64,000 nucleotides of DNA from positions 975,453 through 1,039,452 of the forward strand of contig NZ_JH815203.1 of the NCBI RefSeq assembly GCF_000296465.1, written 5' to 3'. The translations under genes were made by a program, and so were the position numbers. Of the stretch, positions 34,585 to 63,572 are shown in pieces. The first letter of the stretch is position 1; every line of letters begins with the position of its first letter. Origin of the DNA: Barnesiella intestinihominis YIT 11860. Its GTDB lineage: Bacteria; Bacteroidota; Bacteroidia; Bacteroidales; Barnesiellaceae. The notes below the pieces were generated by a model, which was not told the DNA's origin, searched no databases, and saw only the letters and a list, made by a program, of their open reading frames with translations.

Positions 34585-37500
34585 ATGAGAAGACAGGTGC
34601 TACTTCTGTTATTTTCCTTATTTGCTATAGTAGGTTTCGCTCAACAACGCACCGTAACGGGGACCGTTGTATCTGCCGAAGACGGACTGCCCGTTATCGG
34701 GGCATCGATCCATGTCAAAGGATCCTCACAAGGAGCGACAACCGACTTAGATGGAAAATATTCTATTAAAGTCAATGAAAACGCAAGCCTAACATTCAGT
34801 TACGTGGGTATGCAACCGAAAACGGTGCAAGTTGGAAACCAATCTGTCATCAATGTAACTTTAACCTCGTCATCGACACAATTAGACGAGGTTGTCGTAA
34901 CAGCGATGGGTATTCGGGAAGAAAAGAAAAAACTGAACTTCGCCGTCCAAAGTCTAAATGCCGACGAGGTTACTGCCGGACAATCGGCAAACTTCGTAAA
35001 TTCTCTACAAGGGAAAATTGCCGGTGTACAAGTATCAGGGAGCGGAGGTTCACCCAATTCCAGTTCCCAAATCATCATTCGTGCGATTTCGTCCATCAAC
35101 TCAGGACAAAATAACGAACCCCTGTTTATTATCGATGGGATGCCCATGCGTGGAGGCGGTTCGTCGGCCGGTGACATCAACCCGAACGACATCGAAAACA
35201 TGACCGTATTGAAAGGTGCTGCTGCATCGGCATTGTACGGCTCGGAAGCAGCCAACGGTGTAATCCTAATCACCACGAAAAGCGGTAAAACCGGACAGAT
35301 CGTCGTGAACGGTAGTGCCAGCGTACAAATCGACAACAGCGTAAGAATCCCTAAAATTCAACAGAAATATGCTCCGGGAAATCTCGGTTTCTATAAAGAA
35401 AATTCCGTAAGCGGAGGTTGGGGTCCTCTTTTGAAAGAAGGGGAAAGAACCTACGATAACGTCGGAAACTTCTTGGGAACGGGATTGTATCAAAAATACG
35501 ATGTGAACGCTTCGGGAGGAACAGACAAATTCACAGCTTATGCATCGTTCAACTACACTTCTACCGACGGTGTTGTCCCCGAAGATTACAAGAATCGCAT
35601 GGGTGCTTTGTTAAAAGCAACTTTCACCCCTTCGAAATGGGTAAAAATCAATGCATCATTAAATTATATCGATACGAAATCCCGTTCATTCGGCAATAGC
35701 ATGAGTTCTATCTACACTTGGCCTATCAACAACGATATGCGAGTGTACAAAACGCCATTGGGAAAACCCGTTTACAGCATAGAAGACGGTGGTCGTTACG
35801 ACAATTGGAATGCCCTTACAGACGCCGATAAAATTGCAGCCGGAGTAAGCCCTTATTGGGGACGTTACGAAGACGGAGGGGAGACACAATCTTCACGTAC
35901 TATCTTAAACGGATCGATCGAATGGACTCCCATAAAGGATTTGACCTTCACCGGTAAAATCGCATACGACAAAGGATATACAACTTCCGACGCCTACGCC
36001 AAACCTCGTTTCGATAAAGACGAACTGGACGAGAGCGTTATTTCCAAATATCTCTACAAATTCGGTTCTTATAAATTCGAACCCAGCCGTAGCGAATTGC
36101 TCACGATACAGGGATTGGCCACATACAAAGTAGATTTGTTCAAAGATTTCAGCATGAATCTGTTGGCCGGAGCCGAAATCATGATCAACAAAAGCTATGA
36201 AGCCACTATGGCGGGACAGGAGTTCGTATTGGAAGGAGACTATTACAGTTTCAACAATACGAATACCGAAAACTGGCTGAAAACGGGCGACTATCCCATT
36301 TCCTACTTCCGCTCCAAGAAAAACAAATACGGGTATTTCGGAGAATTACGATTCGACTATAAAGGAATCGCCCAATTAAGCGGAACAGCCCGCTACGACG
36401 GTTCCTCTACCTTGAAACAAGCCGAAAAATCTTCCTACTTCTATCCTTCGGTAACGGCAGGTTTAATTTTCAGCGAATTGTTCCACATCAGTAACGATTG
36501 GTTCAGCTATGGTAAAATACGCGGAAACTGGGCACAAGTCGGGAAAGATGCTACTCCCAACAAATTTACCAAAGCCTATCGGGAAGCCTCTACATTCCCC
36601 GACGGAGGATATAGTGTCGACCCCACAGCTTCTTACGCGATTACGCTGGAACCCGAAATGACAAAGTCGTGGGAAATCGGAGCCGATTTAAGATTCTTCG
36701 ACAGCCGCACCCGTTTAGATGTAGCCTACTACTCGACTACGGTAAACAACCAAATCGTAACCGTGAGAGTTTCGCCTTCATCGGGAACTATTCTACAAGT
36801 CCGCAACGAAGGTAGTATCGAGAATCACGGTGTGGAAGCTACGTTAAGCCAAGACATTCTTCGCAGTAAAGATTTCGAATGGACCGCCAACCTCAACTTC
36901 GGGTTGAATCGGGGTGTCGTAAAATCGTTACCCGAAGACGTGAGCGAAATTCAAGGAACTCAGTTCAGCGATATCTATACTACCGCCTATCTAAACGGTT
37001 CGACGACGGGTATTTCAGGCAAGGACTATATGCGTGCTCCCGACGGACAAATACTTATCGACGAGGACGGATATCCCATTATCAACCCGGCCAAGAGCGT
37101 ATATATCGGTAACCGCGAGCCCGACTTCCTGATGGGATTGAGCAGTACGTTCCGATGGAAAGACTTGACTGTATCGTTCTTGCTGGACGGACGTGTAGGA
37201 GGAGACGTATATAACGGAACCGCACGCTCTCTCTTTACCAACGGTATGCACAAATCGTTGGAGAACTACCGTAACCGCGAAGTAGTCGTAAAAGGTGTAG
37301 TCGCACAACCCGACGGAACTTATGTACAAAACAACAAGCCTATCATTTTGAATCAGACCAACCTGAATACCTATTTCTATGGCGTAAGCTCCAATTTTAT
37401 CGAAGACGGTTCTTATCTCCGATTGAGTTACGTCACCGTAGGATATGATTTCACACGGTTCTTGAAAAAAGGGAATCCCTACATTAAAGGATTGAGAGCT

Positions 37501-37659
37501 TCCATTACAGGCCGCAATCTCTTCCTGTTGACCAAATATTCGGGTTCTGATCCGCAAATTTCAACTTCGGCAGCCTACGGTACAGGAACGATGGGTATCG
37601 ACAATATGTCTATCCCGGCCACCCGCAGTTTCAATTTCACTATAAACGCAACATTCTAA
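34585..37659 (+). CDS. SusC/RagA-family TonB-linked outer-membrane channel
   Basis: A 1024-aa transporter opening the large rightward locus. A signal peptide (about 1-19, ending GFAQ) precedes the carboxypeptidase-regulatory-like domain (RTVTGTVVSAEDGLPVIGAS, GATTDLDGKY), the plug (DEVVVTAMGIREEKKKLNFA, SLQGKIAGVQVSGSGG, PLFIIDGMPMRGG, ASALYGSEAANGVILITTKSG) and the barrel, ending ATRSFNFTINATF. It imports oligomers released at the surface, using TonB energy. The SusD gene follows after 12 bp. Its long leader and consensus -7 box suggest strong, regulated expression. The cargo is inferred from the downstream enzymes to be a cell-wall-type glycan or muropeptide. Confidence 0.95.
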   Translation: MRRQVLLLLFSLFAIVGFAQQRTVTGTVVSAEDGLPVIGASIHVKGSSQGATTDLDGKYSIKVNENASLTFSYVGMQPKTVQVGNQSVINVTLTSSSTQLDEVVVTAMGIREEKKKLNFAVQSLNADEVTAGQSANFVNSLQGKIAGVQVSGSGGSPNSSSQIIIRAISSINSGQNNEPLFIIDGMPMRGGGSSAGDINPNDIENMTVLKGAAASALYGSEAANGVILITTKSGKTGQIVVNGSASVQIDNSVRIPKIQQKYAPGNLGFYKENSVSGGWGPLLKEGERTYDNVGNFLGTGLYQKYDVNASGGTDKFTAYASFNYTSTDGVVPEDYKNRMGALLKATFTPSKWVKINASLNYIDTKSRSFGNSMSSIYTWPINNDMRVYKTPLGKPVYSIEDGGRYDNWNALTDADKIAAGVSPYWGRYEDGGETQSSRTILNGSIEWTPIKDLTFTGKIAYDKGYTTSDAYAKPRFDKDELDESVISKYLYKFGSYKFEPSRSELLTIQGLATYKVDLFKDFSMNLLAGAEIMINKSYEATMAGQEFVLEGDYYSFNNTNTENWLKTGDYPISYFRSKKNKYGYFGELRFDYKGIAQLSGTARYDGSSTLKQAEKSSYFYPSVTAGLIFSELFHISNDWFSYGKIRGNWAQVGKDATPNKFTKAYREASTFPDGGYSVDPTASYAITLEPEMTKSWEIGADLRFFDSRTRLDVAYYSTTVNNQIVTVRVSPSSGTILQVRNEGSIENHGVEATLSQDILRSKDFEWTANLNFGLNRGVVKSLPEDVSEIQGTQFSDIYTTAYLNGSTTGISGKDYMRAPDGQILIDEDGYPIINPAKSVYIGNREPDFLMGLSSTFRWKDLTVSFLLDGRVGGDVYNGTARSLFTNGMHKSLENYRNREVVVKGVVAQPDGTYVQNNKPIILNQTNLNTYFYGVSSNFIEDGSYLRLSYVTVGYDFTRFLKKGNPYIKGLRASITGRNLFLLTKYSGSDPQISTSAAYGTGTMGIDNMSIPATRSFNFTINATF

Positions 37660-37671
37660 CATCAAGGAACC

Positions 37672-39345
37672 ATGAATAAATATAAAGTTATCATATTATC
37701 GTTGTTAATCAGTTTCATGGGCGCAAGTTGCGAAGACTGGTTGTACGACAACGTCAACGAAGATGCCGCTCATGAAGTTCTGCCCCAACAGGTATTGCCT
37801 GTCGTGCTGTTCTACTCGGCTCAACTTCAATTCGACCATGCCGAATACGGCGCTTATCTGACCCAAACATTGACTACCGGCGGACGTAACCAAACGTCGA
37901 GTTTCGCATACAAATCCGGCTGGGGCGATTTCCTGACGATGAACCGTCACCCGCAATGGCGTCGCCACTTCTACGATATCGGTGTCAATGCCAAAGAAAT
38001 CATCGACGAGGCTCACGAAGCACAAGCGTGGAATCTGGAACTCATCGGCCGTACCCTTCGGTTAATGTCCACCCAAATGACAACCGACCTGTTCGGAGAC
38101 ATGCCTCGTTCGGAAGCCTATGAATCGAACAGTCCGCACTACGATACGCAAGAAAGCATCTACGAGTGGATGAATCAAGAAATAGAAGAGCTGATAGGCA
38201 TGTATGAAGATCCCACTTATACCGAAGCCGCGACCAATATACCTATCGATCAATCGATCGACCGTGTCTTCGCCGGAGATCTAAATAAATGGAAACACTA
38301 TACCTACGCCTTAAAAGCCCGGTTATTGCTTCGCAAATTGCCGAATTGGGAAAACAATGCGGCGACATGCCAAGCCATCATTACAGCTGTCAACCGGGCA
38401 CTCGAAGGTTGGGAAGATGTACTTTATCGTTTCGACGGCGGTAACGGAGCCCAAAATTCTCCGTGGGGCGAAGCCTTCGGATCGACCGAACAAGGAGGTC
38501 TCGGCTGGGAAGGACGTGGCAACATGTTGAATTCGGCTGTTCCTACCAAATATTTCATGGAAAATATATTGGGCGTATTCGAATCGCATAACAACCTGAG
38601 AGGCTGGGCGGAAGATCCTCGTATCCTCGCTTTCATGAGTGCACGGCCGGGTCCATCGGGAACAAGCGATTCCGGTACTGAAATGCGTTATCTCGATACC
38701 AATATCGGTATGGACGTTTCCTACAAAGTGGATAACTACCCCACCTTGTTCCCCGAAGTCGACGGCAAGAAAGTTTCGGTCTATACGCAAAACACAGGTT
38801 ATGTTCCCCTCTTCCTCGAAGAAGAACTCCTGCTTATCAAAGCCGAAGCTACTTATTGGAGCGGCGACAAGCCGACGGCCCGTTCATTGACCATGCAAGC
38901 TGCCGAAATTAATTTCGACCGATTCAATCTTTCCTCGATTTATGGAAGCAGTTATACCCGCTATCGCAATAACTATTTGGGAAATGAAACCGGAACAGGA
39001 AACTACGTAACTACCTACTTCCCTGCCGACGGATTCAACATCGGGCACATCATGCGTCAGAAATATGTTTGCCTCTATCTGCAACCCGAACAATGGACCG
39101 ATATGCGTCGCTACAATTACAGTTGCGAGGAGAACGGAATACAATATGACAATACCTATGTATACCCCGGATTAAAACGGCCCAATAATATTTATGAAGC
39201 TCATTGGGGAGACGATCCCAAAGCATGGATCAACCGTATCAACTACGACCCCGAAACAGAAGAAAAATACAACAAAGCCGAATTGGAAAGACTGGGCGCA
39301 TACAAAAACTATCAATGGTTGCGCAAACCTATGATCTGGCAATAA
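37672..39345 (+). CDS. SusD-like outer-membrane lipoprotein (SusD_2 type)
   Basis: A 557-aa lipoprotein (lipobox SFMGASCEDW). It resembles the SusD-like_2 branch: VNEDAAHEVLPQQVLPVVLF, the early YLTQTL segment, TDLFGDMPRSEA, WKHYTYALKARLLLRKLPN, EELLLIKAEATYWSGD and the late YLQPEQWTDMRRYN. It pairs with the preceding SusC as substrate-binding lid. It starts 12 bp after susC and is followed after 43 bp by a small lipoprotein gene. Confidence 0.93.
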   Translation: MNKYKVIILSLLISFMGASCEDWLYDNVNEDAAHEVLPQQVLPVVLFYSAQLQFDHAEYGAYLTQTLTTGGRNQTSSFAYKSGWGDFLTMNRHPQWRRHFYDIGVNAKEIIDEAHEAQAWNLELIGRTLRLMSTQMTTDLFGDMPRSEAYESNSPHYDTQESIYEWMNQEIEELIGMYEDPTYTEAATNIPIDQSIDRVFAGDLNKWKHYTYALKARLLLRKLPNWENNAATCQAIITAVNRALEGWEDVLYRFDGGNGAQNSPWGEAFGSTEQGGLGWEGRGNMLNSAVPTKYFMENILGVFESHNNLRGWAEDPRILAFMSARPGPSGTSDSGTEMRYLDTNIGMDVSYKVDNYPTLFPEVDGKKVSVYTQNTGYVPLFLEEELLLIKAEATYWSGDKPTARSLTMQAAEINFDRFNLSSIYGSSYTRYRNNYLGNETGTGNYVTTYFPADGFNIGHIMRQKYVCLYLQPEQWTDMRRYNYSCEENGIQYDNTYVYPGLKRPNNIYEAHWGDDPKAWINRINYDPETEEKYNKAELERLGAYKNYQWLRKPMIWQ

Positions 39346-39388
39346 ATAGAAAAGAATCGAAGTATTACAACAAATAATAACACTCGAT

Positions 39389-40219
39389 ATGAAAAACAAA
39401 GTAAAAATAGCGTCTCTTCTGCTGGCAATCGCCGGATTATCGGGTTGCGAAATCAACGACCCTGTAAACGATTGGGCAGACTTGGGACAACAAACCGCAT
39501 ACGTTTATTGGGAGCTGAAAGATGCCGTGAACGCCGGTAGCGACCTCGATTTCAGAGTTTACTATTATGCCGACGGCAGTACGATAGAGAAAGCCCAAGT
39601 TTGGTATGGAGTGAGCAGTACGATCAATCGTGCCGTTACATGCCCATACATCAGTTACACTTATACCGAAAGCGAGACCGACGAAGTAGTCGCCTCGCAT
39701 TTGGTGAAAGAGTTCGATCCTCAAACCGTGTCGTGGGACGATGCCAAGTCGTCCTACATTCTCGACGCCACTTTCCCGGTCTCCTCTTCATGGGCTAGCG
39801 TGACATGGGCCAGTGTAGGAAGTTCCGATTTTACCGAAACTTTATTCAAGACCTATTATCCCGGCGACTACGAGACCAACTTCCGGGAGGCTCTAACCAC
39901 TCAAATAGAGACCGATTACCACGGAAACATGAAAAAAATCGTTGTCGATGGATTCATGAAAATGACCGAAGAGGAATATGAGGCTCTCTTCACGAAAACG
40001 ACCAACGAAGCCAACGAAGAAGTATATGAAATCACCGACGAGAATAAAGCCCGGCTCGATGGCATCGTTGCAGCTCTAACCACGCCCGAACTCATCTTCG
40101 ACGGCAAAGAATACGGAGTAAACTACAATTGCACCTATACGTTGAGCGCAAAATTCCAAGTAAGCGACTCCAACGGTGTGATAAGCAATACCGATATTAA
40201 AAATATTACTGTCAACTAA
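39389..40219 (+). CDS. Surface lipoprotein of the Sus-like locus, unknown family
   Basis: A 276-aa lipoprotein (lipobox IAGLSGCEINDPVNDW). I do not recognise a named domain. Its middle is rich in aromatic residues and beta-strand patterns (TAYVYWELKDAVNAGSDLDF, YTYTESETDEVV), and it contains an acidic helical stretch (MTEEEYEALFTKTTNEANEE). By position after SusC and SusD it occupies the usual slot of a SusE-like surface glycan-binding protein. Spacing to the next gene is 17 bp, so it is in the same operon. Confidence 0.7.
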   Translation: MKNKVKIASLLLAIAGLSGCEINDPVNDWADLGQQTAYVYWELKDAVNAGSDLDFRVYYYADGSTIEKAQVWYGVSSTINRAVTCPYISYTYTESETDEVVASHLVKEFDPQTVSWDDAKSSYILDATFPVSSSWASVTWASVGSSDFTETLFKTYYPGDYETNFREALTTQIETDYHGNMKKIVVDGFMKMTEEEYEALFTKTTNEANEEVYEITDENKARLDGIVAALTTPELIFDGKEYGVNYNCTYTLSAKFQVSDSNGVISNTDIKNITVN

Positions 40220-40236
40220 TAGAAACGGAAAGAACA

Positions 40237-41889
40237 ATGAAAGCATTAAGAAATATAAGTTTGACGGTTGTCTTGTTGGCTTCGTTATCTGCTTGTGTGG
40301 AAAACGATCCCACTTACAATGTATATCCCAGTGACGATGTAGCGTTTACCTACCACATCACGAACGAAGGATACGAACTCGACTATCTGGTAGGTTCCAC
40401 CATACAGTTTACCAATACATCGGCCATCTCGGGTACATGTACTTGGGACTTCGGCGACGGGGAAACTTCGACCGACGTTAATCCTACCCATACATACAGT
40501 TTACCCGGACAGTACGAGGTAAAATTGACCGTAGGCGACGACTATACGACTCGTCCCTTGCTCATCAACGACATTAAACCTACGATCGTCGCCAAAACGG
40601 AAGATGATAAAATATGTGTCATCAACGATGTCGAAGTGACTTTGGAAGTGACTTTACGAAATCCGGCCGCATCGGAAGAACCGGAATATACATGGGTATT
40701 GCCCGAAGGAACGACCTTGCTCGATCACCCGGAAATAACAGGTAATACCTATACCGGCGAAAATCCGGGCCGATTAGTCTTCAAAAACATAGGTTCGCAA
40801 ACCATCACGTTGAAAACCACTCTCGGCGGACGTGCGCTCCAAGATGTAAAAGCCAATGTGCAAGTAGGTACGCCCAATACATCGAAAACGCTCTACTATG
40901 CGGTAAAAAGTGGAAACGTAATGGCCTACAAACTGGATTATAATGTCCCTGAGGGAAGTAATAACTCTCCCTTCGACTTAGGCGTAAAAGCGGGAGCTCA
41001 CCCTCTGAATATGCTGTTCCATAATGAAGTTCTATTCGTGCTCGACTGCGGTACTCAATTCTCGTATGTCAACGATGAAGATGGAACCCGGGGCGACGGC
41101 AAAATCACAGCGGTAGCCAAAGACGGGAGCAGTATGGAAACCGTGCTCTCCAACATCGGTAACGCCGCCTTCAACGATCCTTTCTACGGTTGGATAGACA
41201 ACGAACAAATCTATTTCGCCGACCGGAATACAGGTATCCGACGCATCGGTGTCAACGAACGTAACTTGGCACTCAGCACCAGCGATGCCAAATACGATTA
41301 TTTCGTTCAGAACAATCGGCTCGAATACTACGGTAACCCGTGGCAATACGGTGCAATGAATGCTTGCTTCGCCAAAGTGGACGGGTTGTGGTATTGGGGC
41401 AAAACATACGGCGGAGGCGGTATCTTCCGTTTCGCAGAAAGCGATATCAGCCCTGTGGACATCAGTCGAGGAACCAACCCTCCCTATGCTACGATTTTCC
41501 CCGATGAATTCGTGAAATCGTTCGTGATAGATGCCACCAATCAAATTTTATATGCCGTCATTCGAGACAAAGGCCTCTATGCCGTTCCTTTAACAGATAT
41601 TACGGCCAACGACGCGACAAAGACCAACACGAAAGCCGAGAGCAAATATCTCGTAGCGAGCTTCAAATCGGACAGCGAAGGAAGCGTAGGAGAATATGTC
41701 GATGTCTGTCAAATGGTACTCGACAGCTCCGACGGTTCGGTTTACTTCGGACTCCGTGCCGAAGAAGGCAGCTCGGAGACATCGGGAGTAAAACGCTGGA
41801 ATCCCACGACGAAAAAGCTGGAAACTATCGTATCGGGGGTCAATGTCTACGGTATAGCACTGAACAACGAGTTATCGAACCTATTCTAA
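40237..41889 (+). CDS. PKD-domain surface lipoprotein with propeller-like C-terminal region
   Basis: A 550-aa lipoprotein (lipobox ASLSACVENDP). A PKD domain is clear at about residues 45-110 (TIQFTNTSAISGTCTWDFGDGETS, THTYSLPGQYEVKLTVGD). A second Ig-like region follows (about 115-215). The C-terminal 330 residues contain repeated beta patterns (LYYAVKSGNVMAYKLDY, IYFADRNTGIRRIGV, ILYAVIRDKGLYAVPL, VYFGLRAEEGSSETSG) that suggest a beta-propeller. PKD modules mediate binding rather than catalysis, so a surface-binding role is likely. It is the fourth gene of the locus and is followed by a GC-rich hairpin before the first enzyme gene. Confidence 0.82.
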   Translation: MKALRNISLTVVLLASLSACVENDPTYNVYPSDDVAFTYHITNEGYELDYLVGSTIQFTNTSAISGTCTWDFGDGETSTDVNPTHTYSLPGQYEVKLTVGDDYTTRPLLINDIKPTIVAKTEDDKICVINDVEVTLEVTLRNPAASEEPEYTWVLPEGTTLLDHPEITGNTYTGENPGRLVFKNIGSQTITLKTTLGGRALQDVKANVQVGTPNTSKTLYYAVKSGNVMAYKLDYNVPEGSNNSPFDLGVKAGAHPLNMLFHNEVLFVLDCGTQFSYVNDEDGTRGDGKITAVAKDGSSMETVLSNIGNAAFNDPFYGWIDNEQIYFADRNTGIRRIGVNERNLALSTSDAKYDYFVQNNRLEYYGNPWQYGAMNACFAKVDGLWYWGKTYGGGGIFRFAESDISPVDISRGTNPPYATIFPDEFVKSFVIDATNQILYAVIRDKGLYAVPLTDITANDATKTNTKAESKYLVASFKSDSEGSVGEYVDVCQMVLDSSDGSVYFGLRAEEGSSETSGVKRWNPTTKKLETIVSGVNVYGIALNNELSNLF

Positions 41890-41910
41890 AAACAAAAGCC
41901 TGATAATTTT

Positions 41911-41958: not shown

Positions 41959-44718
41959 ATGAAATACATCGCAAAAATAGCAATCGTACTGTTTACCTTT
42001 TGGTTAGCTATCCCGACAGTCGCTCAAACTCCTAAAAAAGAGGTCAGAGCGTTCTGGTTATCGACCGTATGGAGATTGACGTGGCCGAAAACTACCGTTA
42101 TCTCGAACACCGGAAATGCGCAAGAAATCCAAGAACAAAAAGACGAGTTAATCATGTTGCTCGACTCGGTAAAAGCAGCCAATGCCAATACCGTTTATTT
42201 CCAAGTGCGCGGCCGTTGCGATGCAATGTATAAATCCTCTTACGAACCGTGGTCGAGCGACCTCGTAGCGACACGAGGCATGGACCCGGGGTACGACCCC
42301 TTGCTGTTTGCTGTCGAAGAGGCTCACAAACGGGGTATCGAAATTCACGCATGGTTCAACCCCTACCGGTATGAGAGCGTACTGCACCAATGGGACGGAA
42401 CGCCTCAAAATTATCGGGAATCTCACCCGGAATGGCTCTTAGACTATTCGGACGGTTCTATCTTGAATCCGGCAATGCCGGAAGTGAGAGACCATATCAC
42501 CGCCATTATTCAAGAAGTCGTACAAAACTACGACATCGACGGTGTTGTCTTCGACGACTATTTCTACATGTCGGGGACGACCGACGACATGGACGACGAA
42601 TTATACCAGCAATCCAATCCCGACAACCTCTCTCGGGCTGACTGGCGGCGTCAGAATGTAAATAAACTGATCGCTCAGGTTTACCGAATGATTCAATCGG
42701 AAAAACCTTATGTGCGATTCGGTATCTCTCCCGCCGGTGTATGGTGCACCGATGCCACGATAGCCGAGCGATACGGCGTTACTCCTACCCCGGTAGGTTC
42801 CGATTGGGCGTACGACGATATCTTCTGCGATCCTATGGCATGGATACAAGAACACTCTATCGATTACATATCGCCGCAAATCTATTGGACGATAGGATCG
42901 AGCAGCGATTACACGCTTATCGCCGAATGGTGGAGCCAAATCGTAAGGCAATTCGGTTGTCATTTTTATTCGAGCCATTCGGCATCCGATTTGAGCTCGG
43001 CCAAAATGCCATCAAAATACGGAAAAACGACAACCGGTACGCTATCGTTCGATTTAAACGGAGAAAAAGTTTCTTCCAAAGCGCTCTCTCCCATCGAACG
43101 GAAAACAGCCGAAGAAAACGAATACATAGTCGATGGCGCAACCGCTTCGTTCAAAGGCTCCGAACTGGTCAATCAAATTAAAGTAAACCGCACATATGAC
43201 AAAACGGGAGCCCCGGGAAGCGTATTCTACAACATGCGCAAGGTAACCCATACTTCGGGAATGCTCTCCTTGTTGCGGTCGGACGTCTATAAATACCCGG
43301 CTCTGATACCGGCCATCAGCTGGAAAGCGACCTCCGATCCCGGATTAGTATCGAATATTGCTTTCACTAACGGTCAATTATCATGGACGGGAGCAGAGGG
43401 TATGCGATACGCCGTATATGCCGTACCGGAAAATGCGGCACAAACGACCGCTTGCCGGGATGCCCGCTATCTGTTGGGGCTCTCATACAGCACCGACTAT
43501 TCCATACCGACAGTTTATCGCACGGGGTATACATACGCGGTTTCCATCGTCGACCGTTACGGAAACGAGTATGCACCCTTGTTCATGGGAGCCACGGCAG
43601 GTACAAACGAAGCCGTGACATTAAATACTCCGGTAAACAACGGAACGGCCATAGGCAACTACGAATTCACGTGGAGCAGTGTCGCCGATGCGTCCTATTA
43701 TATAGACATTGCCCGCGACGATTTATTCACCGACCTCATACTCTCGCGGGAAACTACCGGTACTTCTTTCCCTTCGAGCTATCTGCCCGACTTGGAAAAA
43801 GGGACTTATTACTGGCGGATTCGTACACGAAAAGCCAACTGTTCGGACGGCATCTCTTCCGTATATGCATTCCAGTCCGGTCCGTTCGAAATAGAATCTC
43901 CGACCAAAGGAGCTACCGAAGTGTCTGTCACGCCTTCTATCACTTGGACCGAATATCCAAACGCTACGGAATACCGACTCGAAATAAACAAATACGACGA
44001 CTTCCGCTCTATGGGTAAAGTTCTCGACCAACGATATAGCGAACACTCCATTACCCTCCCCGAAGGCGTATTGGTGGGAAATACGAAATATTACGCACGC
44101 GTAACCGCATACGCAGGCTCGACAGAAAGTATCAGTAAAACGACGAATTTCACGACAGAATCGAAAGAGCCGTCCATACCGGTCATTCTATATCCCACGC
44201 AGGGAGCGACGGTCGAAGCCACGTCCTTACAAGTACGCTGGGCAGAAGAACCGTTCGCCAGCACCTTCCGTATCGAATTACACACCAACGACCAGTTTAC
44301 CCCGATACGAAACGTAAAAAGACAGACCGTAAACGCATTCACTTACGAAACGGAATTCGACAACTTGACCGACGGTACATGGTATCTGCGGGCCCGCTCG
44401 GAATATGTAGGAGGCGAAACGGAATATTGCGATACAATATCCTTCACTTTCAAAAATTCATCGGGTATGGAAACTCTCGAAAAGAGGGGTAAATGTTATG
44501 TCATACAGGGTGAGAATCCCGCTCTCGTCGTAGGAAACGACGCACGTCACATAACGGTCGATGTAGCTAACTTATCCGGGCAAATTATCGGGCGTTTCGC
44601 CGATATGGAAAATCCGGCAGCAGGAGACCGTATCGAATTGAGCGGGCTTGTACGTGGAGTCTATGCGGTCATCGTCCACATCGACGGAAAAAGAGAGATA
44701 TTGAAATTGATTCACTAA
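41959..44718 (+). CDS. GHL10-type glycosidase (DigH/YddW-like) with FnIII domains and T9SS tail
   Basis: A 919-aa secreted protein. After the signal peptide (about 1-23) comes a glycosyl-hydrolase-like 10 domain (about 27-360): EVRAFWLSTVWRLTWPKT, NTVYFQVRGRCDAMYKSSYEPWS, HKRGIEIHAWFNPYR, IDGVVFDDYFYMSG and IDYISPQIYWTIG. E. coli DigH (YddW) of this family cleaves denuded peptidoglycan glycan strands. Three or more fibronectin/Ig-like modules (about 450-830) follow, then a C-terminal sorting-like domain ending GVYAVIVHIDGKREILKLIH. The length is roughly twice that of YddW because of these additions. It is the first catalytic gene of the locus; a peptidoglycan substrate is by family analogy. 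Confidence 0.87.
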   Translation: MKYIAKIAIVLFTFWLAIPTVAQTPKKEVRAFWLSTVWRLTWPKTTVISNTGNAQEIQEQKDELIMLLDSVKAANANTVYFQVRGRCDAMYKSSYEPWSSDLVATRGMDPGYDPLLFAVEEAHKRGIEIHAWFNPYRYESVLHQWDGTPQNYRESHPEWLLDYSDGSILNPAMPEVRDHITAIIQEVVQNYDIDGVVFDDYFYMSGTTDDMDDELYQQSNPDNLSRADWRRQNVNKLIAQVYRMIQSEKPYVRFGISPAGVWCTDATIAERYGVTPTPVGSDWAYDDIFCDPMAWIQEHSIDYISPQIYWTIGSSSDYTLIAEWWSQIVRQFGCHFYSSHSASDLSSAKMPSKYGKTTTGTLSFDLNGEKVSSKALSPIERKTAEENEYIVDGATASFKGSELVNQIKVNRTYDKTGAPGSVFYNMRKVTHTSGMLSLLRSDVYKYPALIPAISWKATSDPGLVSNIAFTNGQLSWTGAEGMRYAVYAVPENAAQTTACRDARYLLGLSYSTDYSIPTVYRTGYTYAVSIVDRYGNEYAPLFMGATAGTNEAVTLNTPVNNGTAIGNYEFTWSSVADASYYIDIARDDLFTDLILSRETTGTSFPSSYLPDLEKGTYYWRIRTRKANCSDGISSVYAFQSGPFEIESPTKGATEVSVTPSITWTEYPNATEYRLEINKYDDFRSMGKVLDQRYSEHSITLPEGVLVGNTKYYARVTAYAGSTESISKTTNFTTESKEPSIPVILYPTQGATVEATSLQVRWAEEPFASTFRIELHTNDQFTPIRNVKRQTVNAFTYETEFDNLTDGTWYLRARSEYVGGETEYCDTISFTFKNSSGMETLEKRGKCYVIQGENPALVVGNDARHITVDVANLSGQIIGRFADMENPAAGDRIELSGLVRGVYAVIVHIDGKREILKLIH

Positions 44719-53948: not shown

Positions 53949-54860
53949 ATGAGAGTAAATTTAACCATAATCCTGCTAGCATGTATCGCATCGCTATCGG
54001 GACAGAATGTAAAAGTTACCAAACATTACGAGATAACCCCTTCGGTCGGACAATCGGCCTTCTATCCGATACTTAGTCCCGACGGGAATCGAATCGTATA
54101 TACTTCTGAAAATTTTTCCGGCTTAAAATCATACGATTTTGCGTCAGGGAAAAACCAGATTATCACTACTGCCGAGGGAGCCGGGTTCGACCCGATTTTC
54201 AGCACCGACGGTTCAACGGTGTATTATCGGCCGCAAAGCATCATAAACGGACGTGTTCACCGATCTTTGAAAGAATATAACTTGATCGAGAAAGCCGAAA
54301 AACAACTTATCGCCCCAACCCGCGATTTGAAACGTCCGGTCGCCATCTCAGGCGGTATGGAAGTAGTGGCCGACAATAAACTTATGAAAAGTACAGGCTC
54401 TCAAATAAGCGGGAACTATGTCTATTCCATCATCAAAGAGGGAAAAATAATCGTGTGCGACGGTAAAAACACCCGCATATTACGTCCTTACGGCGACAAA
54501 GTGGAAAGTTATTTGTGGACAGCCGTATCGCCCGACGGATCCAAAATCGTGACTTATGCCATAGGCGTAGGAACCGTTGTACTCGATATGCAGGGTAACA
54601 TACTTGCCGAACTGGGCGACTACGAATCCCCTACGTGGTATGGCAACGATTTCGTTGCAGCCATGAAAGCGACCGACGACGGTCACCAATTTACTTCGTC
54701 GAAAATCGTATTGTTAGACTGCAACAGTAAACAAGTACACGATTTGACATCTCCTTCCGAAATGGGTATGAATCCGTCGGCCTCGGCCGAAGCAGGCAGA
54801 ATAGTGTACAGCACGGTCGAAGGAAAACTTTTTATGTTGGAATTGAATGTAACGAAATAA
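53949..54860 (+). CDS. TolB-like beta-propeller protein
   Basis: A 303-aa exported protein with a signal peptide (about 1-18). It contains PD40/TolB-type repeats: FYPILSPDGNRIVYTSENFSG, FDPIFSTDGSTVYYRPQS, WTAVSPDGSKIVTYAIG and NPSASAEAGRIVYST. This is a small propeller, usually a binding scaffold rather than an enzyme. No lipobox or sorting tail is evident, so it is probably periplasmic. It sits 18 bp after the third NAGPA paralogue and 10 bp before the amidase gene, firmly inside the operon. Confidence 0.82.
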   Translation: MRVNLTIILLACIASLSGQNVKVTKHYEITPSVGQSAFYPILSPDGNRIVYTSENFSGLKSYDFASGKNQIITTAEGAGFDPIFSTDGSTVYYRPQSIINGRVHRSLKEYNLIEKAEKQLIAPTRDLKRPVAISGGMEVVADNKLMKSTGSQISGNYVYSIIKEGKIIVCDGKNTRILRPYGDKVESYLWTAVSPDGSKIVTYAIGVGTVVLDMQGNILAELGDYESPTWYGNDFVAAMKATDDGHQFTSSKIVLLDCNSKQVHDLTSPSEMGMNPSASAEAGRIVYSTVEGKLFMLELNVTK

Positions 54861-54870
54861 CCTCATCGCC

Positions 54871-57255
54871 ATGAAAAAATATTATATCATTCTCATTGCC
54901 TTCTTGGGCTGTTTAGGCTTGCAAGCCAAAGATATGACCGGACTTAAAATTTACATCAATCCGGGTCACGGCGGTTATGACTCGGACGACCGCAATGTAG
55001 CCGTATATCCGTATGCACAAGGCGACACACTCGGTTTTTGGGAATCCTCGTCGAATCTGCACAAAGGATTGATGTTAAGAGAACTGCTACAAGAGCAGGG
55101 AGCTACCGTAGCGATGTCTCGCGTATTAAATCGGACGGAAGACGACCGAGGACTCGAAACCATCGGGCGGGAAGCCAGCGAATGGGAGGCCGACCTGTTT
55201 TTCTCCATACACAGCAATGCGACCGGCACGAGCCGCCGGGATAATTTCCCGATGATGTTGTTCAGAGGATATACCGAAAATCCGGTAAAGCCCGAGGACA
55301 AGGTAGCGGCAAAGATACTGTTCAAGCACCTTATCGAAAACCAAGTAACCTATTGGACTCAAACGGAAGAGTATGTCGTGGGCGATTTTGATTTCTATCC
55401 CGACTGGAACAATGCAGGATTGGGAGTCCTCCGAAAATTAACCGTCACCGGGTTTCTTTCAGAAGGTTCTTATCACGACTATGTGCCCGAAACATATCGT
55501 TTGCTCAACATGGACTACAAATGGATGGAGGCATGGCATTTCACCAAAGCTGTCATGGAATACTTCGACACAGAAGGATTCACAACGGGAAATATCGCCG
55601 GTGTTATTTATGATAGTCGCATGACCCGTACCGAATCGTACGTACAACACGGAAGAGACAAGCAAGTGCCATTATGTGGAGCCACAGTAACCCTGTTGCC
55701 GAACAATATAACCTATACGACGGATAACCTATACAACGGCGTATACATGTTTAAAAACCTCGCTCCGGGTAATTACCAGCTAAAAATCGCAGCGGAAGAC
55801 CATTACGATCGGACAATCTATGTAACAGTGACAGCCAATACAATAAGTTATACCAATGTGGCTATGGACAGAGTGAGAAATACAGCACCGGAAGTCACCT
55901 CTTACAGCCCTGTCATGGAAAACGAAACAGACAGCATCAACTGTACGACTCCCATTGTCTTGAATTTCAATTGGGATATGGACACGGAATCTGTACAAAA
56001 GGCTTTCTCGATCGACCCGCCGGTAGAAGGGAACATTACATTCGAGGATTCACAGTACCGAATGGTATTTACCCCCACTCGTCCTTACGAGGTAGCTACC
56101 CTATATACCGTAAAACTCGATAAAAGTGCAAAACACCCGGGTAATATGTCTATGACCGAAGATTTTTCCTTCACGTTCTTAACGCAGGGAAGAAACCAAT
56201 TGAAACTATTGGCAGCCAGCCCATCGGAAGGAGCGGTACTACACTATCCGAAACCGACGATCGAAGTAAGATTCGATAATGTTCTCGACCCTGTCAATAT
56301 TCGAGACCTCATCAAATTACAGGATAGTGAAGGAAACGATGTCAGCATCAACTTGCGTTCTGCCAAATACAACCAGTTAGGAGACTCCTACGGGAACTAT
56401 TATTTTACCACAGCTGCCGATTTGAAACAAGGACAAAATTATAAATTGAAAATAGATGCCTCGTTGCACGATGTGGAAAATATAGCGATCGTAGACCCCA
56501 TCGAAATCAATTTTACCGCCGGAGATGTAAGCCGCTCCGAAACAGCCGTCGAGGAATTCGAAACTCCCGATATGATTACATTCGATGCGACCCAAAGTAT
56601 CGGGACAACCACTGCAAAAGCGATTCGCTCTACCGCTCAAAAACTGTTCGGTAGCGCATCTTACAATTTCACATACACGTTCAATGCAGACGAAGCTCGC
56701 GCCGTATTCACAACAGCCGATACATTCGGAAGTTCCACTGTGGTCGACAATACCCAAACTATCGGTATGCACATTTACGGCGATCTTTCTTGCGACGAAA
56801 TATGGCTGCAACTATCCTCTGGAAACGATACACAAGAGATTTTATTGACGAATGTCGATTTCAGAGGCTGGCAATTCCGGGAAACCCGTTTGGACCAGCT
56901 GAATCCGGGAAAGGACTATCGCATAAGCGGCATAAAGATAACGAGAACAAAACCGTTCTTCTCCGAATCGGGTAGTTTCTTCTTAGACAATATGCTGGTA
57001 TATACCTCCTCGGATATTCACTTTATCGCTACATCGAAAGCCGTAAATGTTTATCCTAATCCGGCCTCCGATATATTAAAAATTCAGTCTGACACCTCCG
57101 TACAACGGTGGACCCTGTACAGCCTATCGGGAAGCTGTATCGCTACCGGTTCGGAAACAACGATAGATACCTCGAACATTCCCGCGGGAACGTACTTGTT
57201 GAAAATACAGACCGAAGGAAAAGAGTTCTGTTATCCGGTTTTGATTGTACATTGA
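54871..57255 (+). CDS. N-acetylmuramoyl-L-alanine amidase (Amidase_3) with Ig-like domains and T9SS tail
   Basis: A 794-aa secreted amidase that should cut the bond between MurNAc and the peptide stem of peptidoglycan. The zinc/catalytic set of Amidase_3 is complete: His in INPGHGGYD (about 34), Glu in LGFWESSSNL (about 59), His in FSIHSNATG (about 113) and Glu in FLSEGSYHDY (about 204). Downstream are a carboxypeptidase-regulatory-like domain (about 268-330), two Big_5-type Ig domains (about 335-545), a carbohydrate-binding-like region (about 560-710) and a sorting domain (VNVYPNPASDILKIQ to GTYLLKIQTEGKE). It is the last gene before a strong terminator. Confidence 0.93.
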   Translation: MKKYYIILIAFLGCLGLQAKDMTGLKIYINPGHGGYDSDDRNVAVYPYAQGDTLGFWESSSNLHKGLMLRELLQEQGATVAMSRVLNRTEDDRGLETIGREASEWEADLFFSIHSNATGTSRRDNFPMMLFRGYTENPVKPEDKVAAKILFKHLIENQVTYWTQTEEYVVGDFDFYPDWNNAGLGVLRKLTVTGFLSEGSYHDYVPETYRLLNMDYKWMEAWHFTKAVMEYFDTEGFTTGNIAGVIYDSRMTRTESYVQHGRDKQVPLCGATVTLLPNNITYTTDNLYNGVYMFKNLAPGNYQLKIAAEDHYDRTIYVTVTANTISYTNVAMDRVRNTAPEVTSYSPVMENETDSINCTTPIVLNFNWDMDTESVQKAFSIDPPVEGNITFEDSQYRMVFTPTRPYEVATLYTVKLDKSAKHPGNMSMTEDFSFTFLTQGRNQLKLLAASPSEGAVLHYPKPTIEVRFDNVLDPVNIRDLIKLQDSEGNDVSINLRSAKYNQLGDSYGNYYFTTAADLKQGQNYKLKIDASLHDVENIAIVDPIEINFTAGDVSRSETAVEEFETPDMITFDATQSIGTTTAKAIRSTAQKLFGSASYNFTYTFNADEARAVFTTADTFGSSTVVDNTQTIGMHIYGDLSCDEIWLQLSSGNDTQEILLTNVDFRGWQFRETRLDQLNPGKDYRISGIKITRTKPFFSESGSFFLDNMLVYTSSDIHFIATSKAVNVYPNPASDILKIQSDTSVQRWTLYSLSGSCIATGSETTIDTSNIPAGTYLLKIQTEGKEFCYPVLIVH

Positions 57256-57270
57256 CAAAGGATTAAGAAT

Positions 57271-57325
57271 ATACGGGCGATAAAGTATAAACGATCTGCT
57301 TTGTACTTTACCGTCCGTATTTTTA
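57271..57325 (+). terminator. Rho-independent terminator after the amidase gene
   Basis: ATACGGGCGATAAAGTA (57271-57287) pairs with TACTTTACCGTCCGTAT (57304-57320), with one G-U wobble and one mismatch, followed by TTTTTAT. It closes the NAGPA-TolB-amidase transcript. Confidence 0.8.
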
Positions 57326-57377
57326 TCGTACTATTTTTAACAGAATTTTGATACTTTACAGTAAAATAAGTATTCTA

Positions 57378-57409
57378 TTTGGAAAATGAAGAAAGATATT
57401 TTATCTTTG
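57378..57409 (+). promoter_or_regulatory. Consensus promoter of the amino-sugar kinase gene
   Basis: TTTG at 57378-57381 and TATCTTTG at 57402-57409 are separated by exactly 20 bp, a full Bacteroidetes -33/-7 match. The leader to the kinase start is about 185 nt. Confidence 0.75.
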
Positions 57410-57602
57410 CATAAGATGCAGAAATAGGTTGTGCCTCAGTAAAATCGATGCTAACATTGTTTCTACTTTCGAACGGCACTATTCTCATAAAAGATAAACG
57501 ACACTCGCCGATACGAAAATTAATTTTCATCACGGCCGTTTGTTTTATCTTTATAAAGAGTTGAATGATGCCAGAAAGCACATCTATCAAGATTTTTTAT
57601 TT
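57410..57602 (+). other. Leader of the kinase mRNA with 14-bp palindrome
   Basis: The leader holds no gene that I can support. GAAAATTAATTTTC at 57515-57528 is a perfect 14-bp palindrome that could be an operator for a dimeric regulator. TATCTTTA near 57545 is a weaker second -7 candidate. Confidence 0.35.
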
Positions 57603-58442
57603 ATGAAAGTTATAGCAGAAAGTGGTTCCACGACAACAGAATGGGTTCTCGTCGATGGAAAAAATGTTTTGGAAAGAAGTTTTACGGAAGGAATAAATCC
57701 CTTTTTCCAAACGAGAAGGGAAATAAGCCACAGTATCCGTCTCAATTTACCGGAAACTTTTTTTAAGAAACGATGGGAACGGGTCTATTTTTATGGCGCC
57801 GGATGTGCCAATCTGGATAAGAAAAACATTCTCGAAGCCTCGTTAGTAGCACAGTTCAAAACACCCATTTCGGCGGAAAGCGATTTATTGGCTGCCGCCA
57901 GAGGTTTGCTAATCGACAAACCGGGAATAGCCTGTATCTTGGGGACCGGTTCGAATTCTTGTCTATACGACGGAGAACGTATCATTAAAAACGTACGTTC
58001 CGCCGGATATATCTTAGGAGACGAAGGCAGTGGGGCTGCTATGGGACGACGCTTTTTAAGTGACTATTTAAAGAACCTTACTCCAAAGGATCTCTGCGAT
58101 GCTTTTCATGAAAAATTCAAAGTTACTCCGGACGAGATTATGGATTCCATATATAACCACCCTTTCCCCAACCGTTCGCTTTCTACTTTCTCCTATTTCT
58201 TGAAAGACCATCTGGACAACAAATATGCGTTCAATTTAGTCTATGAAGAGTTGATGAGATTCTTCCAGAGAAACATTATCCAATATGACTATAAATCATA
58301 TCCGGTTTATTTCATGGGTAATTTGGCCTATACCTACGCCGATATTCTCGATTTGGTAGCTAAGGATTTCGGATTGAATATAGAAAAAACGGAAAAAAGC
58401 CCTATGCAGGGACTCATCGAATATCACTCGATCTACGGGTAA
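57603..58442 (+). CDS. N-acetylhexosamine kinase (BadF/BcrA-type ATPase fold)
   Basis: A 279-aa cytoplasmic sugar kinase of the BadF/BadG/BcrA/BcrD ATPase family, which includes GlcNAc kinases and the MurNAc/GlcNAc kinase MurK. The actin-like fold is marked by phosphate-1 ESGSTTTEWVLVDG, phosphate-2 ILGTGSNSCLYDG and GDEGSGAAMGRRFLSDYL, and a late YFMGNLAYTYADI adenosine-type segment. The start MKVIAESGSTTTEW is chosen over an ATG 63 bp upstream because it aligns with the family N-terminus. It has its own promoter and terminator. It would phosphorylate amino sugars released by the neighbouring hydrolases after import; GlcNAc versus MurNAc cannot be decided here. Confidence 0.88.
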   Translation: MKVIAESGSTTTEWVLVDGKNVLERSFTEGINPFFQTRREISHSIRLNLPETFFKKRWERVYFYGAGCANLDKKNILEASLVAQFKTPISAESDLLAAARGLLIDKPGIACILGTGSNSCLYDGERIIKNVRSAGYILGDEGSGAAMGRRFLSDYLKNLTPKDLCDAFHEKFKVTPDEIMDSIYNHPFPNRSLSTFSYFLKDHLDNKYAFNLVYEELMRFFQRNIIQYDYKSYPVYFMGNLAYTYADILDLVAKDFGLNIEKTEKSPMQGLIEYHSIYG

Positions 58443-58470
58443 AGATATCTCATTATTTCGATTTATACTC

Positions 58471-58509
58471 ATATGCAGGATCGTATCGACAGATTCTGCA
58501 TATTTTTTT
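58471..58509 (+). terminator. Rho-independent terminator after the kinase gene
   Basis: ATATGCAGGA (58471-58480) pairs with TTCTGCATAT (58494-58503), with one G-U wobble, and is followed directly by a run of seven or more Ts (58503-58509). Confidence 0.88.
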
Positions 58510-58579
58510 CTTGTAAAAAAGAGAGATGAATTCATATTAAAAAATACTAAATATATGTTCTCGAATCAAAAACATATAT

Positions 58580-58587
58580 TATATTTG
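58580..58587 (+). promoter_or_regulatory. -7 box upstream of the golvesin-domain amidase gene
   Basis: TATATTTG is a perfect -7 element about 130 bp before the start codon. The -33 region is not conserved. Together with the terminator just upstream it implies a separate transcription unit. Confidence 0.5.
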
Positions 58588-58715
58588 TATGAACCATAAT
58601 AGAAAGGTATCTACTCATGAACTTTTAGCACCTAAAATAATGCTGTAAAAAGTTCTAACAAAGAGAAAATAGATTGACAAAAAAACAGGAACCGAAGTTT
58701 ATCCATTCGAAAAAC

Positions 58716-61700: not shown

Positions 61701-61703
61701 GTT

Positions 61704-63572
61704 ATGAAAAGAATTTATCTTTCTCTCTCGCTTTTATTGCTTGTCATTATCGGTAGTAGAGCCGCAAACTTCAAATTCGCATTTCTCACCGATATACACA
61801 TTACCGCCGGAGATTCTATCCCTTACAACGATTTAGCCCGGTCGGTAAACCAAATCAACGATACTCCGGGCATTGAATTTGCCATTGTATCGGGCGACAT
61901 CACCAATATAGGAGATCGCCAATCGATGGAAGTGGTCAAATCGCTACTCGACCGACTGAATGTCGAATACCATATCATTCCCGGTAATCATGAAACGAAA
62001 TGGAGTGAATCGGGAGTAACCGATTTCGCAAGGGTATTCGGAAGCGAAAGATTCAAATTCGAACATGACGGTATCTTATTCATGGGAGTAAATTCAGGCC
62101 CTATCATACGAATGGCCGATGGTCACGTGGCGCCTCAGGACATCGACTGGATCAAAACGGAATTGGACAAAGCCGGTAAAGAAAAGCCCGTAATCTTTAT
62201 CACTCACTACCCCCTACAACCGGGCGATGTAGATAACTGGTACGACGTTACCGATGCCATACGCCCCTACAATATCCGCCTCGTCATGGGCGGACATTAC
62301 CACAAATATATGCAACTGGAATACGATGGTATCCCCGGTATTCTGTGCCGGTCGAACCTACGAGCCAAAGAGAAAACAGGCGGATACTCCCTGTGTGAAG
62401 TCACCCCTGATTCTATTTTCATTTACGAGCATAAAATAGGTAATGTTCCTACCCGTAAAGGAGCATACTCCATGACCGGAATGAATTATCCCAAAAGCAA
62501 TGCCGGTTATCCTCGTCCTGATTACTCGGTTAACAAAGAGTTCCCGCAAGTTTCGGAGCAATGGCTCGTCAGAAGCGGATATGAAATATTCTCCTCACCT
62601 GCCTATTGGGATAAAAAAGTTTACGTAGGCGATGACTCCGGGGCCATTTCCTGTTATTCGGCCACCGACGGCCGAAAACAGTGGAGTTTCAAATCGGATA
62701 TGCGTATCATAGGGACACCTGCCGCCGATAAAAACGTCGTCGTATTCGGCTCTGCCGACATGAATATATACGGTCTGAATGCATCCGACGGCCGACTGTT
62801 GTGGAAAATAAACACCGAAGCACCCGTATTGGGAGCAGTTACCATACGAAACGGAATCGCCTACATCGGAGGCAGCGACCACAAATTTCGCGCAATCGAC
62901 ATTAAATCGGGAACTGTCGTTTGGAGTTACGACGGCGTAGAAGGCTACATAGAAACCAAACCCCTCGTTTACGACAATCTCGTGATATTCGGAGCATGGG
63001 ATAAAAACCTCTATGCCCTCGATAAGAAAACAGGAAAAGAAGTTTGGAAATGGCACGAAGGGAAACCGGGTAGATTCTATTCGGCAGCGGCCGTTTGGCC
63101 CGTGGCGGCAAATGGGAAAGTATTCATCGCCGACCCCGAAAGAGTATTGACAGCTATCGATGCTTCTACCGGAAAAACCGTATGGAGAACCAAAGAATCG
63201 ATGGTACGTGAGACCGTCGGCCTGTCGGAAGACAAACGGAGAATTTACAGTAAAACCATGAACGACAGTGTCGTATGTTACTCTACCACTACCGACTTCC
63301 CTGAAAAAATATGGGCTTCGAATGTCGGATTCGGATATGAGCACGCCCCGTCCATGCCGGTTGAAAAAGAGGGTGTTGTTTTCGGCAGTACCAAAAACGG
63401 ATTGATGTTCGGGTTGGATGCCCACACAGGCAAAGTACTCTGGAAACACAAAGTGGGTAATTCGCTCATCAGTACACTCGTACCGCTCTCTAAAAACAAA
63501 TGCCTGTTTACTGCCACCGGCGGTGAAATAGGATTGTTGGTAATCGATTATAAAATAAACAAACACAAATAA
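61704..63572 (+). CDS. Metallophosphoesterase fused to a PQQ-like beta-propeller
   Basis: A 622-aa exported fusion (signal peptide about 1-20). The calcineurin-like phosphoesterase (about 22-260) has the full metal set: LTDIHI, SGDITN, GNHETKW, THYPLQ and GGHYHKYM. The C-terminal 350 residues form a PQQ/BamB-like propeller with repeats such as GAISCYSATDGRKQWSFKSD, MNIYGLNASDGRLLWKINTE and LYALDKKTGKEVWKWHEG. It starts 3 bp after the golvesin-domain amidase, so translation may be coupled. Phosphate removal from wall-derived sugar phosphates is a reasonable guess but not shown. Confidence 0.9.
   Translation: MKRIYLSLSLLLLVIIGSRAANFKFAFLTDIHITAGDSIPYNDLARSVNQINDTPGIEFAIVSGDITNIGDRQSMEVVKSLLDRLNVEYHIIPGNHETKWSESGVTDFARVFGSERFKFEHDGILFMGVNSGPIIRMADGHVAPQDIDWIKTELDKAGKEKPVIFITHYPLQPGDVDNWYDVTDAIRPYNIRLVMGGHYHKYMQLEYDGIPGILCRSNLRAKEKTGGYSLCEVTPDSIFIYEHKIGNVPTRKGAYSMTGMNYPKSNAGYPRPDYSVNKEFPQVSEQWLVRSGYEIFSSPAYWDKKVYVGDDSGAISCYSATDGRKQWSFKSDMRIIGTPAADKNVVVFGSADMNIYGLNASDGRLLWKINTEAPVLGAVTIRNGIAYIGGSDHKFRAIDIKSGTVVWSYDGVEGYIETKPLVYDNLVIFGAWDKNLYALDKKTGKEVWKWHEGKPGRFYSAAAVWPVAANGKVFIADPERVLTAIDASTGKTVWRTKESMVRETVGLSEDKRRIYSKTMNDSVVCYSTTTDFPEKIWASNVGFGYEHAPSMPVEKEGVVFGSTKNGLMFGLDAHTGKVLWKHKVGNSLISTLVPLSKNKCLFTATGGEIGLLVIDYKINKHK

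Follow-up and report, generated by a model that had tools for sequence, protein, structure and literature searches.

A candidate Sus-type peptidoglycan-utilisation locus beside a MurNAc-salvage operon in Barnesiella intestinihominis

The window analysed here is a stretch of 64,000 nucleotides from the 3.44 Mb genome of Barnesiella intestinihominis YIT 11860 (G000:C1:975453-1039452; the genomes compared carry running numbers, and G000 is that of the window). Positions 34585-63572 contain a surface module of the Sus type, which runs from a SusC transporter to the amidase AmiA, followed by a sugar kinase and by the first genes of a salvage operon for N-acetylmuramic acid (MurNAc). The salvage operon opens inside the span with a Golvesin-domain protein and the phosphoesterase MPE, and extends beyond the window. 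The SusC-to-AmiA genes form a conserved accessory module, and their grouping is well beyond chance. Taken together, these genes probably form a coherent accessory locus for the utilisation of peptidoglycan, connected to a salvage operon of a known kind.

Gene organization of the span

Domains were assigned by Pfam and TIGR profile matches, and lipoboxes and signal peptides were read by eye (Table 1). A preliminary description, made from the sequence alone, had listed the SusC/SusD pair, two lipoproteins, a GHL10 glycosidase, three NAGPA paralogues, two Amidase_3-type proteins, a BadF-type kinase and a metallophosphoesterase fusion on one strand. All of these were confirmed, on the plus strand, except the second Amidase_3 protein (58674-61700), which has no such domain match.

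Table 1. Genes and features in and next to positions 34585-63572 of the window
Feature	Position	Strand	Evidence
SusC-type TonB-dependent transporter	34585..37659	+	TIGR04056 650 bits; Plug and barrel; closest solved structure BT_2264 (5FQ6)
SusD-like_2 lipoprotein, first marker gene of the module	37672..39345	+	PF12771 4.7e-24
LipoA, lipoprotein, family without assignment	39389..40219	+	no Pfam match; matched in 14/14 regions; lipobox by eye
LipoPKD, PKD-domain lipoprotein, candidate binding protein, second marker gene	40237..41889	+	PKD match; lipobox by eye
GHL10, predicted glycan-strand cleaving enzyme	41959..44718	+	PF02638 3e-68; sole solved match Cwp19
Hyp485, predicted beta-propeller	44785..46242	+	tail of type IX secretion system (T9SS) kind, 24.7 bits vs cut-off 23
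NAGPA1, phosphodiester glycosidase domain, T9SS tail, motifs intact	46508..48946	+	PF09992 2.4e-31
NAGPA2, phosphodiester glycosidase domain, T9SS tail, motifs intact	48968..51430	+	PF09992 2.2e-27
NAGPA3, NAGPA domain with altered motifs, T9SS tail	51450..53930	+	PF09992 7.6e-23
TolB/WD40-like propeller protein	53949..54860	+	profile matches
AmiA, Amidase_3 and Big_5 domains, T9SS tail	54871..57255	+	PF01520 1.2e-10, 42.1 bits vs cut-off 27
Weak match to the Bacteroides promoter consensus, AmiA-BadF gap	57378..57409	+	3 in window vs 1.4 expected
BadF1, kinase of Tannerella forsythia K1058 type	57540..58442	+	solved-structure match 6e-114
Golvesin-domain protein, 1008 aa	58674..61700	+	Golvesin_C and fn3 (Pfam)
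MPE, calcineurin-like phosphoesterase fused to PQQ propeller	61704..63572	+	Pfam and profile matches
Next salvage-operon gene, start only, glycosyltransferase-like by position	63587..64000	+	runs past window end

The genes from SusC to Hyp485 are joined by gaps of 12-69 bp (12 bp between susC and susD), and those from NAGPA1 to AmiA by gaps of 10-21 bp. Only 3 bp separate the Golvesin gene from MPE. Because gaps of 265, 284 and 231 bp divide the span, parting the SusC-Hyp485 run, the NAGPA1-AmiA run, the kinase and the Golvesin gene, it is not one unit, and the last unit continues beyond the window end. The preliminary description had treated these genes as one locus; the grouping recurs in 14 regions, and the single unit does not stand. 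Promoter and terminator scans of the window gave matches not clearly commoner than in shuffles. No RNA families or tRNAs were found in the window.

A GH109 gene upstream (32180-33547, minus strand) was not counted as part of the locus, being divergent and 1037 bp away; it is kept in G004 and G005, whereas in G003 the 4.3 kb available ahead of susC showed no copy. The window also contains a further SusC/SusD pair of the SusD_RagB type (17443-22045, minus strand), with a subtilase (24474-26591) on the other strand.

Conservation of the module and its linkage to MurNAc salvage

Gene order was compared across Bacteroidales, as the preliminary description had proposed, and the block proved to be conserved. 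The module (34585-57255) was found in 14 regions, with 21-62% identity outside Barnesiella. Its carriers are five of nine Barnesiella genomes, Bacteroides salyersiae, B. nordii, G325, G049, G080, G244 and G318, together with the metagenome-assembled G351 and G353. SusC, SusD, LipoA, LipoPKD and GHL10 are all seen in 12 of the 14 regions; the remaining two, G002 and the stretch from B. nordii, are truncated where the contig or stretch stops. NAGPA genes occur in 13 regions (1 to 5 copies), Hyp485 in 13, and AmiA and the TolB-like protein in 11 each. In an order-wide sample of 344 genomes and 194 genera, matches to SusD at E<=1e-90 and to LipoPKD at E<=1e-25 select the same seven genomes, from six genera. 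G352 has NAGPA and GHL10 genes and no SusD match; its contig starts within the block.

MurQ (E<=1e-40) is present in 78 of the 344 genomes and in all seven with the module, an association with P values of 2.5e-5 by genome and 1.8e-4 by genus. SusD lies within 40 kb of MurQ in four of six decidable lineages (36 kb in the window genome, 27 kb in B. salyersiae, 4 kb in G049, 31 kb in G244), with P = 5.9e-6 under random placement for lineages that are not fully independent. In G049, murK-murQ is directly 5' of susC. The linkage is undecidable in G325, G080, B. nordii and G353, where contig ends leave minimum possible distances of 10-25 kb.

Past the window end, the operon continues with genes for a glycosyltransferase-like protein, DUF4922, SpoIID, an AmpG-family transporter, NamZ, an FAD/FeS oxidase, a membrane protein resembling NagX, BadF2 as the second BadF kinase, MurQ and a GDSL protein. 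MurQ was matched with 380 bits, SpoIID at 2.1e-48 and NamZ_N at 2.1e-87; the AmpG-family match (9.9e-47, 159.5 bits) is below the model cut-off of 350. The NagX-like protein is equated with MurT by position; BadF2 corresponds to MurK. The peptidoglycan half of the preliminary description is thereby strengthened: an AmpG/NamZ/MurTKQ operon of the T. forsythia type begins in the span, and the association of the module with MurQ extends across the order.

Three other Barnesiella genomes, G008 (L090-L091), G007 (L094-L095) and G001 (L096-L097), keep the Golvesin-to-MurQ cluster without the module; the absence is defined by no SusD match at 1e-15 in G007 and G008, and by a missing GHL10 orthologue only in G001. 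NamZ, the MurT-like protein, MPE and the K1058-type kinase are missing in the stretch examined. As these genomes keep the cluster, BadF1, the Golvesin protein and MPE were rejected as members of the SusCD module proper. G006, the fourth Barnesiella genome without the module GHL10, has no MurQ match either.

The surroundings of the module vary between genomes. Genes homologous to MPE (36%) follow the module in two genomes, G244 and, at a distance of about 9 kb, G080. In G325, AmiA has the oxidase and a K1058-type kinase as neighbours. In B. salyersiae, a K1058-type kinase lies before susC, and the salvage genes are reversed in orientation, in the order TolB-like protein, second Amidase_3 protein, second NamZ, sodium:solute symporter, MPE and on to MurQ. 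In G067 (L138/L139) and G172 (L140-L142), a different SusCD pair, of the SusD_RagB type and not the SusD-like_2 type of the window, lies between the Golvesin gene and a K1058-like kinase 62-63% identical to BadF1. The window kinase, between the module and the Golvesin gene, has a similar but not identical position. These arrangements suggest that surface importers came to adjoin the salvage operon at least twice. G172 also has a second NamZ and a sodium:solute symporter at its salvage cluster.

Because the salvage operon adjoins, MurQ accompanies the module in all seven genomes, four of six lineages are linked, and a second SusCD pair sits beside the operon in two genomes, it is quite probable that this is a peptidoglycan-utilisation locus, in which a Sus-type surface module is joined to a MurNAc-salvage operon; its gene content, order, conservation and linkage are observed, and its catalysis and transport are inferred from protein families. 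The source is probably the wall of other bacteria rather than the cell's own. A recovery of the own envelope, with turnover fragments released outside, re-imported and recycled, appears unlikely. The downstream operon is of the recycling type and is mostly kept in Barnesiella without the module, and the enzymes Cwp19 and DigH are described as working on the wall of their own cell, which would fit such recovery. However, the module is rare (7 of 344 genomes) compared with MurQ (78 of 344), and T9SS tails on several enzymes and lipoboxes on the binding proteins fit outward-facing work. Sugar-1-phosphate-linked polymers are also not known from the walls of Bacteroidales themselves, which counts against own-envelope recovery.

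Features of the predicted enzymes and surface proteins

The window GHL10 matches Cwp19 (1.3e-75, 258 bits), a lytic transglycosylase (PMC6016235) for which thirteen active-site residues have been named (PMC5765458). Ten of the thirteen were checked, mapped by motif, in 16 GHL10 rows from the modules, and all ten positions are kept in 11 of the 16. His replaces Gln82 in G318, G351 and G353, and Gly replaces Ser257 in three rows, namely G353 and two of L060 (from G352). The 16 rows form one clade among 41 (support 95/95), with long branches flagged. The family match and the kept residues point to a putative peptidoglycan-cleaving enzyme. A second GHL10 (G000:C4:270901-272487; L018, L048), 39-42% identical to that of the window, is matched in exactly those five Barnesiella genomes in which the module GHL10 occurs, and is unmatched in the other four.

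NAGPA1 and NAGPA2 keep the HPRT, DGR and NLDGGGS motifs. In NAGPA3, these read SRS or SRT, IDYK and NMDAGGSA in all five Barnesiella copies, and its counterpart in B. nordii has ADGK and GLDGGGSS; given these altered motifs, NAGPA3 may have a new specificity, or may only bind. The human uncovering enzyme takes GlcNAc off GlcNAc-P-mannose and exposes mannose-6-phosphate (PMC12024695). An analogous NAGPA cut, made at a GlcNAc-P-MurNAc linkage, would yield MurNAc-6-phosphate. The family assignment is consistent with enzymes that cut sugar-1-phosphate links to MurNAc, and with the freeing of teichoic acids or rhamnans that the preliminary description had proposed; no natural substrate of the bacterial NAGPA/DUF2233 forms was found in the literature searched.

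NAGPA genes are not confined to the module. On the minus strand of the window genome, L049 (G000:C1:512000-531999), 4088-19436, is a SusCD locus with DUF6259, NAGPA, GH3 and a GDPD-SGNH-DUF4855 fusion, and is a candidate for glycerol-phosphate (teichoic-type) polymers. L047 (G000:C1:1112000-1131999), 8594-19997, also minus, is a SusCD locus with two NAGPA genes flanking an Exo_endo_phos protein; its families suggest more phosphodiester chemistry. In G351 (L148/L149) and G353 (L150/L151), the module is followed by five NAGPA genes, of which four or five are arranged in tandem.

AmiA has H, E, H and E motifs at residues 33, 58, 114 and 198, the predicted metal-binding and catalytic residues. The supposed second amidase was not confirmed: a PF01520 search of the own genome found five places, this gene not among them, and profile comparison with AmiA gave 1.5% probability. 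FHSDAG and LLELLSH are in register with the His and Glu motifs, and the structure model was unusable (predicted local distance difference test, pLDDT, 33). The Golvesin protein may be a very divergent amidase.

BadF1 is under the Pfam cut-off (27.1 vs 31.5 bits), and its closest solved structures are 8OQK/8OW7; those of BadF2 are 1ZXO and 8OQW/8OW9. 8OW7 is K1058 and 8OW9 is MurK (PMC10465942, which prints the other two codes as 8QQK and 8QQW). Of these two kinases, BadF1 resembles K1058 more closely; at the position that tells them apart it has the Arg of the K1058 type, followed by Ser (Ala in K1058). Among 22 kinase rows, R/K then S/A was found in nine, two of which are second copies from the same genomes, and S-P in 13. 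K1058 has a KM of 28 uM and a kcat of 0.18 per s on MurNAc, compared with a kcat of 32 per s for MurK; it binds MurNAc tightly with poor turnover, and its authors doubt that MurNAc is the substrate (PMC10465942). Ten of the 344 genomes have a kinase with at least 51% identity to BadF1; the module is present in three of them (G000, G004, G325) and absent from seven (G067, G172, G241, G286, G140, G313, G027). The K1058-type kinase was rejected as a module marker, because seven of ten carriers lack the module and four of seven module genomes lack the kinase at E<=1e-75. The MPE propeller contains a sub-threshold SUKH-4 match (17.5 vs 25.5 bits).

SusD, LipoA and LipoPKD have lipoboxes (LSGC-E and LSAC-V in the latter two), and the enzymes have apparent signal peptides. 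Surface exposure and binding by LipoA and LipoPKD are putative on this basis. The T9SS-tail matches are above the cut-off in NAGPA1-3 and AmiA, barely above it in Hyp485, and below it in GHL10. The T9SS gene sprA is present in 13 of 13 genomes tested (the own genome and 12 of 12 others). Two of these genomes, G008 and G352, have no SusD match; therefore sprA is no marker of the module and merely permits the export step. The Hyp485 model has a mean pLDDT of 66.5 and matches mainly generic WD40-type propellers with low TM-scores.

A role as a weapon, in which wall hydrolases at the surface would lyse neighbouring cells and not serve feeding, is very improbable. A secreted amidase and GHL10 could lyse cells, and NAGPA is joined to other domains in proposed Bacillota conflict proteins, some with a predicted peptidoglycan peptidase (PMC12419801). 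On the other hand, the SusCD importer and the adjoining salvage operon would be needless for a weapon, and no immunity or delivery gene was above cut-off among the Pfam matches of the span.

Proposed function and comparison with known systems

Several observations weigh against a peptidoglycan substrate. The module is optional, because three Barnesiella genomes keep the salvage cluster without it, and a K1058-like kinase is missing at E<=1e-75 from four of the seven order-sample genomes with the module. The core is not linked to MurQ in G318 and G351 (at least 162 and at least 74 kb apart), and the sub-branch of G318, G351 and G353 is without the amidase; the substrate in this branch may be different. 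G318 has a GH31 enzyme (directly behind GHL10; L152, 418-2886, minus) and no NAGPA. GHL10 folds resemble those of enzymes for other glycans, PgaB (PMC5765458) and GH156 (PMC6811678). Three of the ten NAGPA genes in the window genome sit in the two other SusCD loci. Lastly, the 14 proteins encoded in 34585-63572 have no regulator among their Pfam matches; a linked sensor or regulator is common but not universal in Sus-type polysaccharide utilisation loci (PULs).

Some of these points would suit a module that feeds on another phosphodiester-linked or amino-sugar polymer (a teichoic-type polymer, a sugar-1-phosphate capsule or one like poly-N-acetylglucosamine), with the salvage adjacency secondary. 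They are the NAGPA genes of the two other SusCD loci (one with GDPD and GH3, one with Exo_endo_phos), the MurQ-unlinked G318 with its GH31, and a NAGPA number that ranges from 0 to 5. Such a substrate is nevertheless considered decidedly unlikely, in view of the AmiA homologue in 11 of 14 regions, MurQ in every module genome, the linkage in most decidable lineages and the second SusCD pair beside the same operon.

Under the peptidoglycan-utilisation reading, the following scheme may be proposed. At the cell surface, the T9SS-exported NAGPA enzymes and the amidase would free wall material of its attached polymers and stem peptides, leaving denuded glycan strands for GHL10 to cut. The resulting pieces would be bound by SusD, LipoA and the PKD lipoprotein and imported through SusC. 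SpoIID and NamZ would finish the pieces in the periplasm, AmpG and MurT would carry the sugars inward, and MurK and MurQ would convert MurNAc to GlcNAc-6-phosphate.

A further proposal, tentative and open to considerable doubt, is that the NAGPA enzymes reverse LCP ligases. If so, NAGPA would cut the sugar-alpha-1-phosphate-6-MurNAc bond that holds teichoic acids, rhamnans and others on Gram-positive walls. The MurNAc-6-phosphate left in the glycan would already be a substrate of MurQ, so that decorated walls would feed salvage without a kinase step. MPE might then trim leftover phosphate, and the K1058-type kinase might act on the freed linkage-unit sugar. Barnesiella would be a dedicated Gram-positive wall scavenger, with separate SusCD loci for the wall (the window) and for a teichoic-type polymer (the NAGPA-GH3-GDPD locus).

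The locus names candidate genes for the capture and import of wall material at the surface of a gut commensal. To the salvage scheme of the T. forsythia type it adds a candidate outer-membrane step, and it places the K1058 kinase in a context. Because GHL10, NAGPA and Amidase_3 are not classical polysaccharide hydrolases, surveys led by such hydrolases may overlook it. No SusCD system for peptidoglycan was found in a search of titles and abstract openings, with most subscription journals outside its coverage.

By comparison with known systems, the locus shares with Sus-type PULs the tandem susC-susD pair, followed by two lipoproteins, and a glycan-degrading enzyme by family (GHL10); the closest solved SusC is BT_2264 (5FQ6), and no 5FQ6-5FQ8 chain is among the 9 solved matches of the window SusD. 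It differs in its enzymes, which are GHL10, NAGPA and amidase instead of classical polysaccharide hydrolases. The window GHL10 differs from Cwp19 and DigH by a long extra C-terminal part and by its own clade; the sequence comparison was made with Cwp19, and DigH is likened by its description as a GHL10-family enzyme. For E. coli DigH, a specificity for denuded strands has been described (PMC12288456), and with such a specificity an amidase in the same locus would be sensible. NAGPA1 and NAGPA2 have the HPRT, DGR and NLDGGGS motifs in common with 3OHG and the uncovering enzyme 6PKG (NAGPA/DUF2233), by comparison with which the motifs of NAGPA3 are altered. ShfP-type phosphoesterases have a calcineurin domain with a PQQ propeller, as does MPE, a likeness by domains listed; a ShfP figure legend includes PQQ and NAGPA among the joined domains (PMC11188070), whereas MPE and NAGPA are in separate genes here.

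The closest parallel in gene order is the salvage operon of T. forsythia (PMC5388701, PMC7670621), with which the Golvesin-to-MurQ order is shared. Tanf_08345-08385 form one transcript of xanthan lyase, gtf, gtf, lytB, ampG, ybbC, murT, murK and murQ (PMC5388701). In its position, the Golvesin protein corresponds to the 'xanthan lyase' at the head of this operon; xanthan lyase, both gtf genes and murT were equated by position, without comparison to the T. forsythia sequences. A K1058-type kinase lies upstream in both species (PMC10465942). The excerpts that describe T. forsythia salvage name no outer-membrane importer. In the window genome, MPE, the FAD/FeS oxidase and the SusCD/GHL10/NAGPA/amidase module are added.

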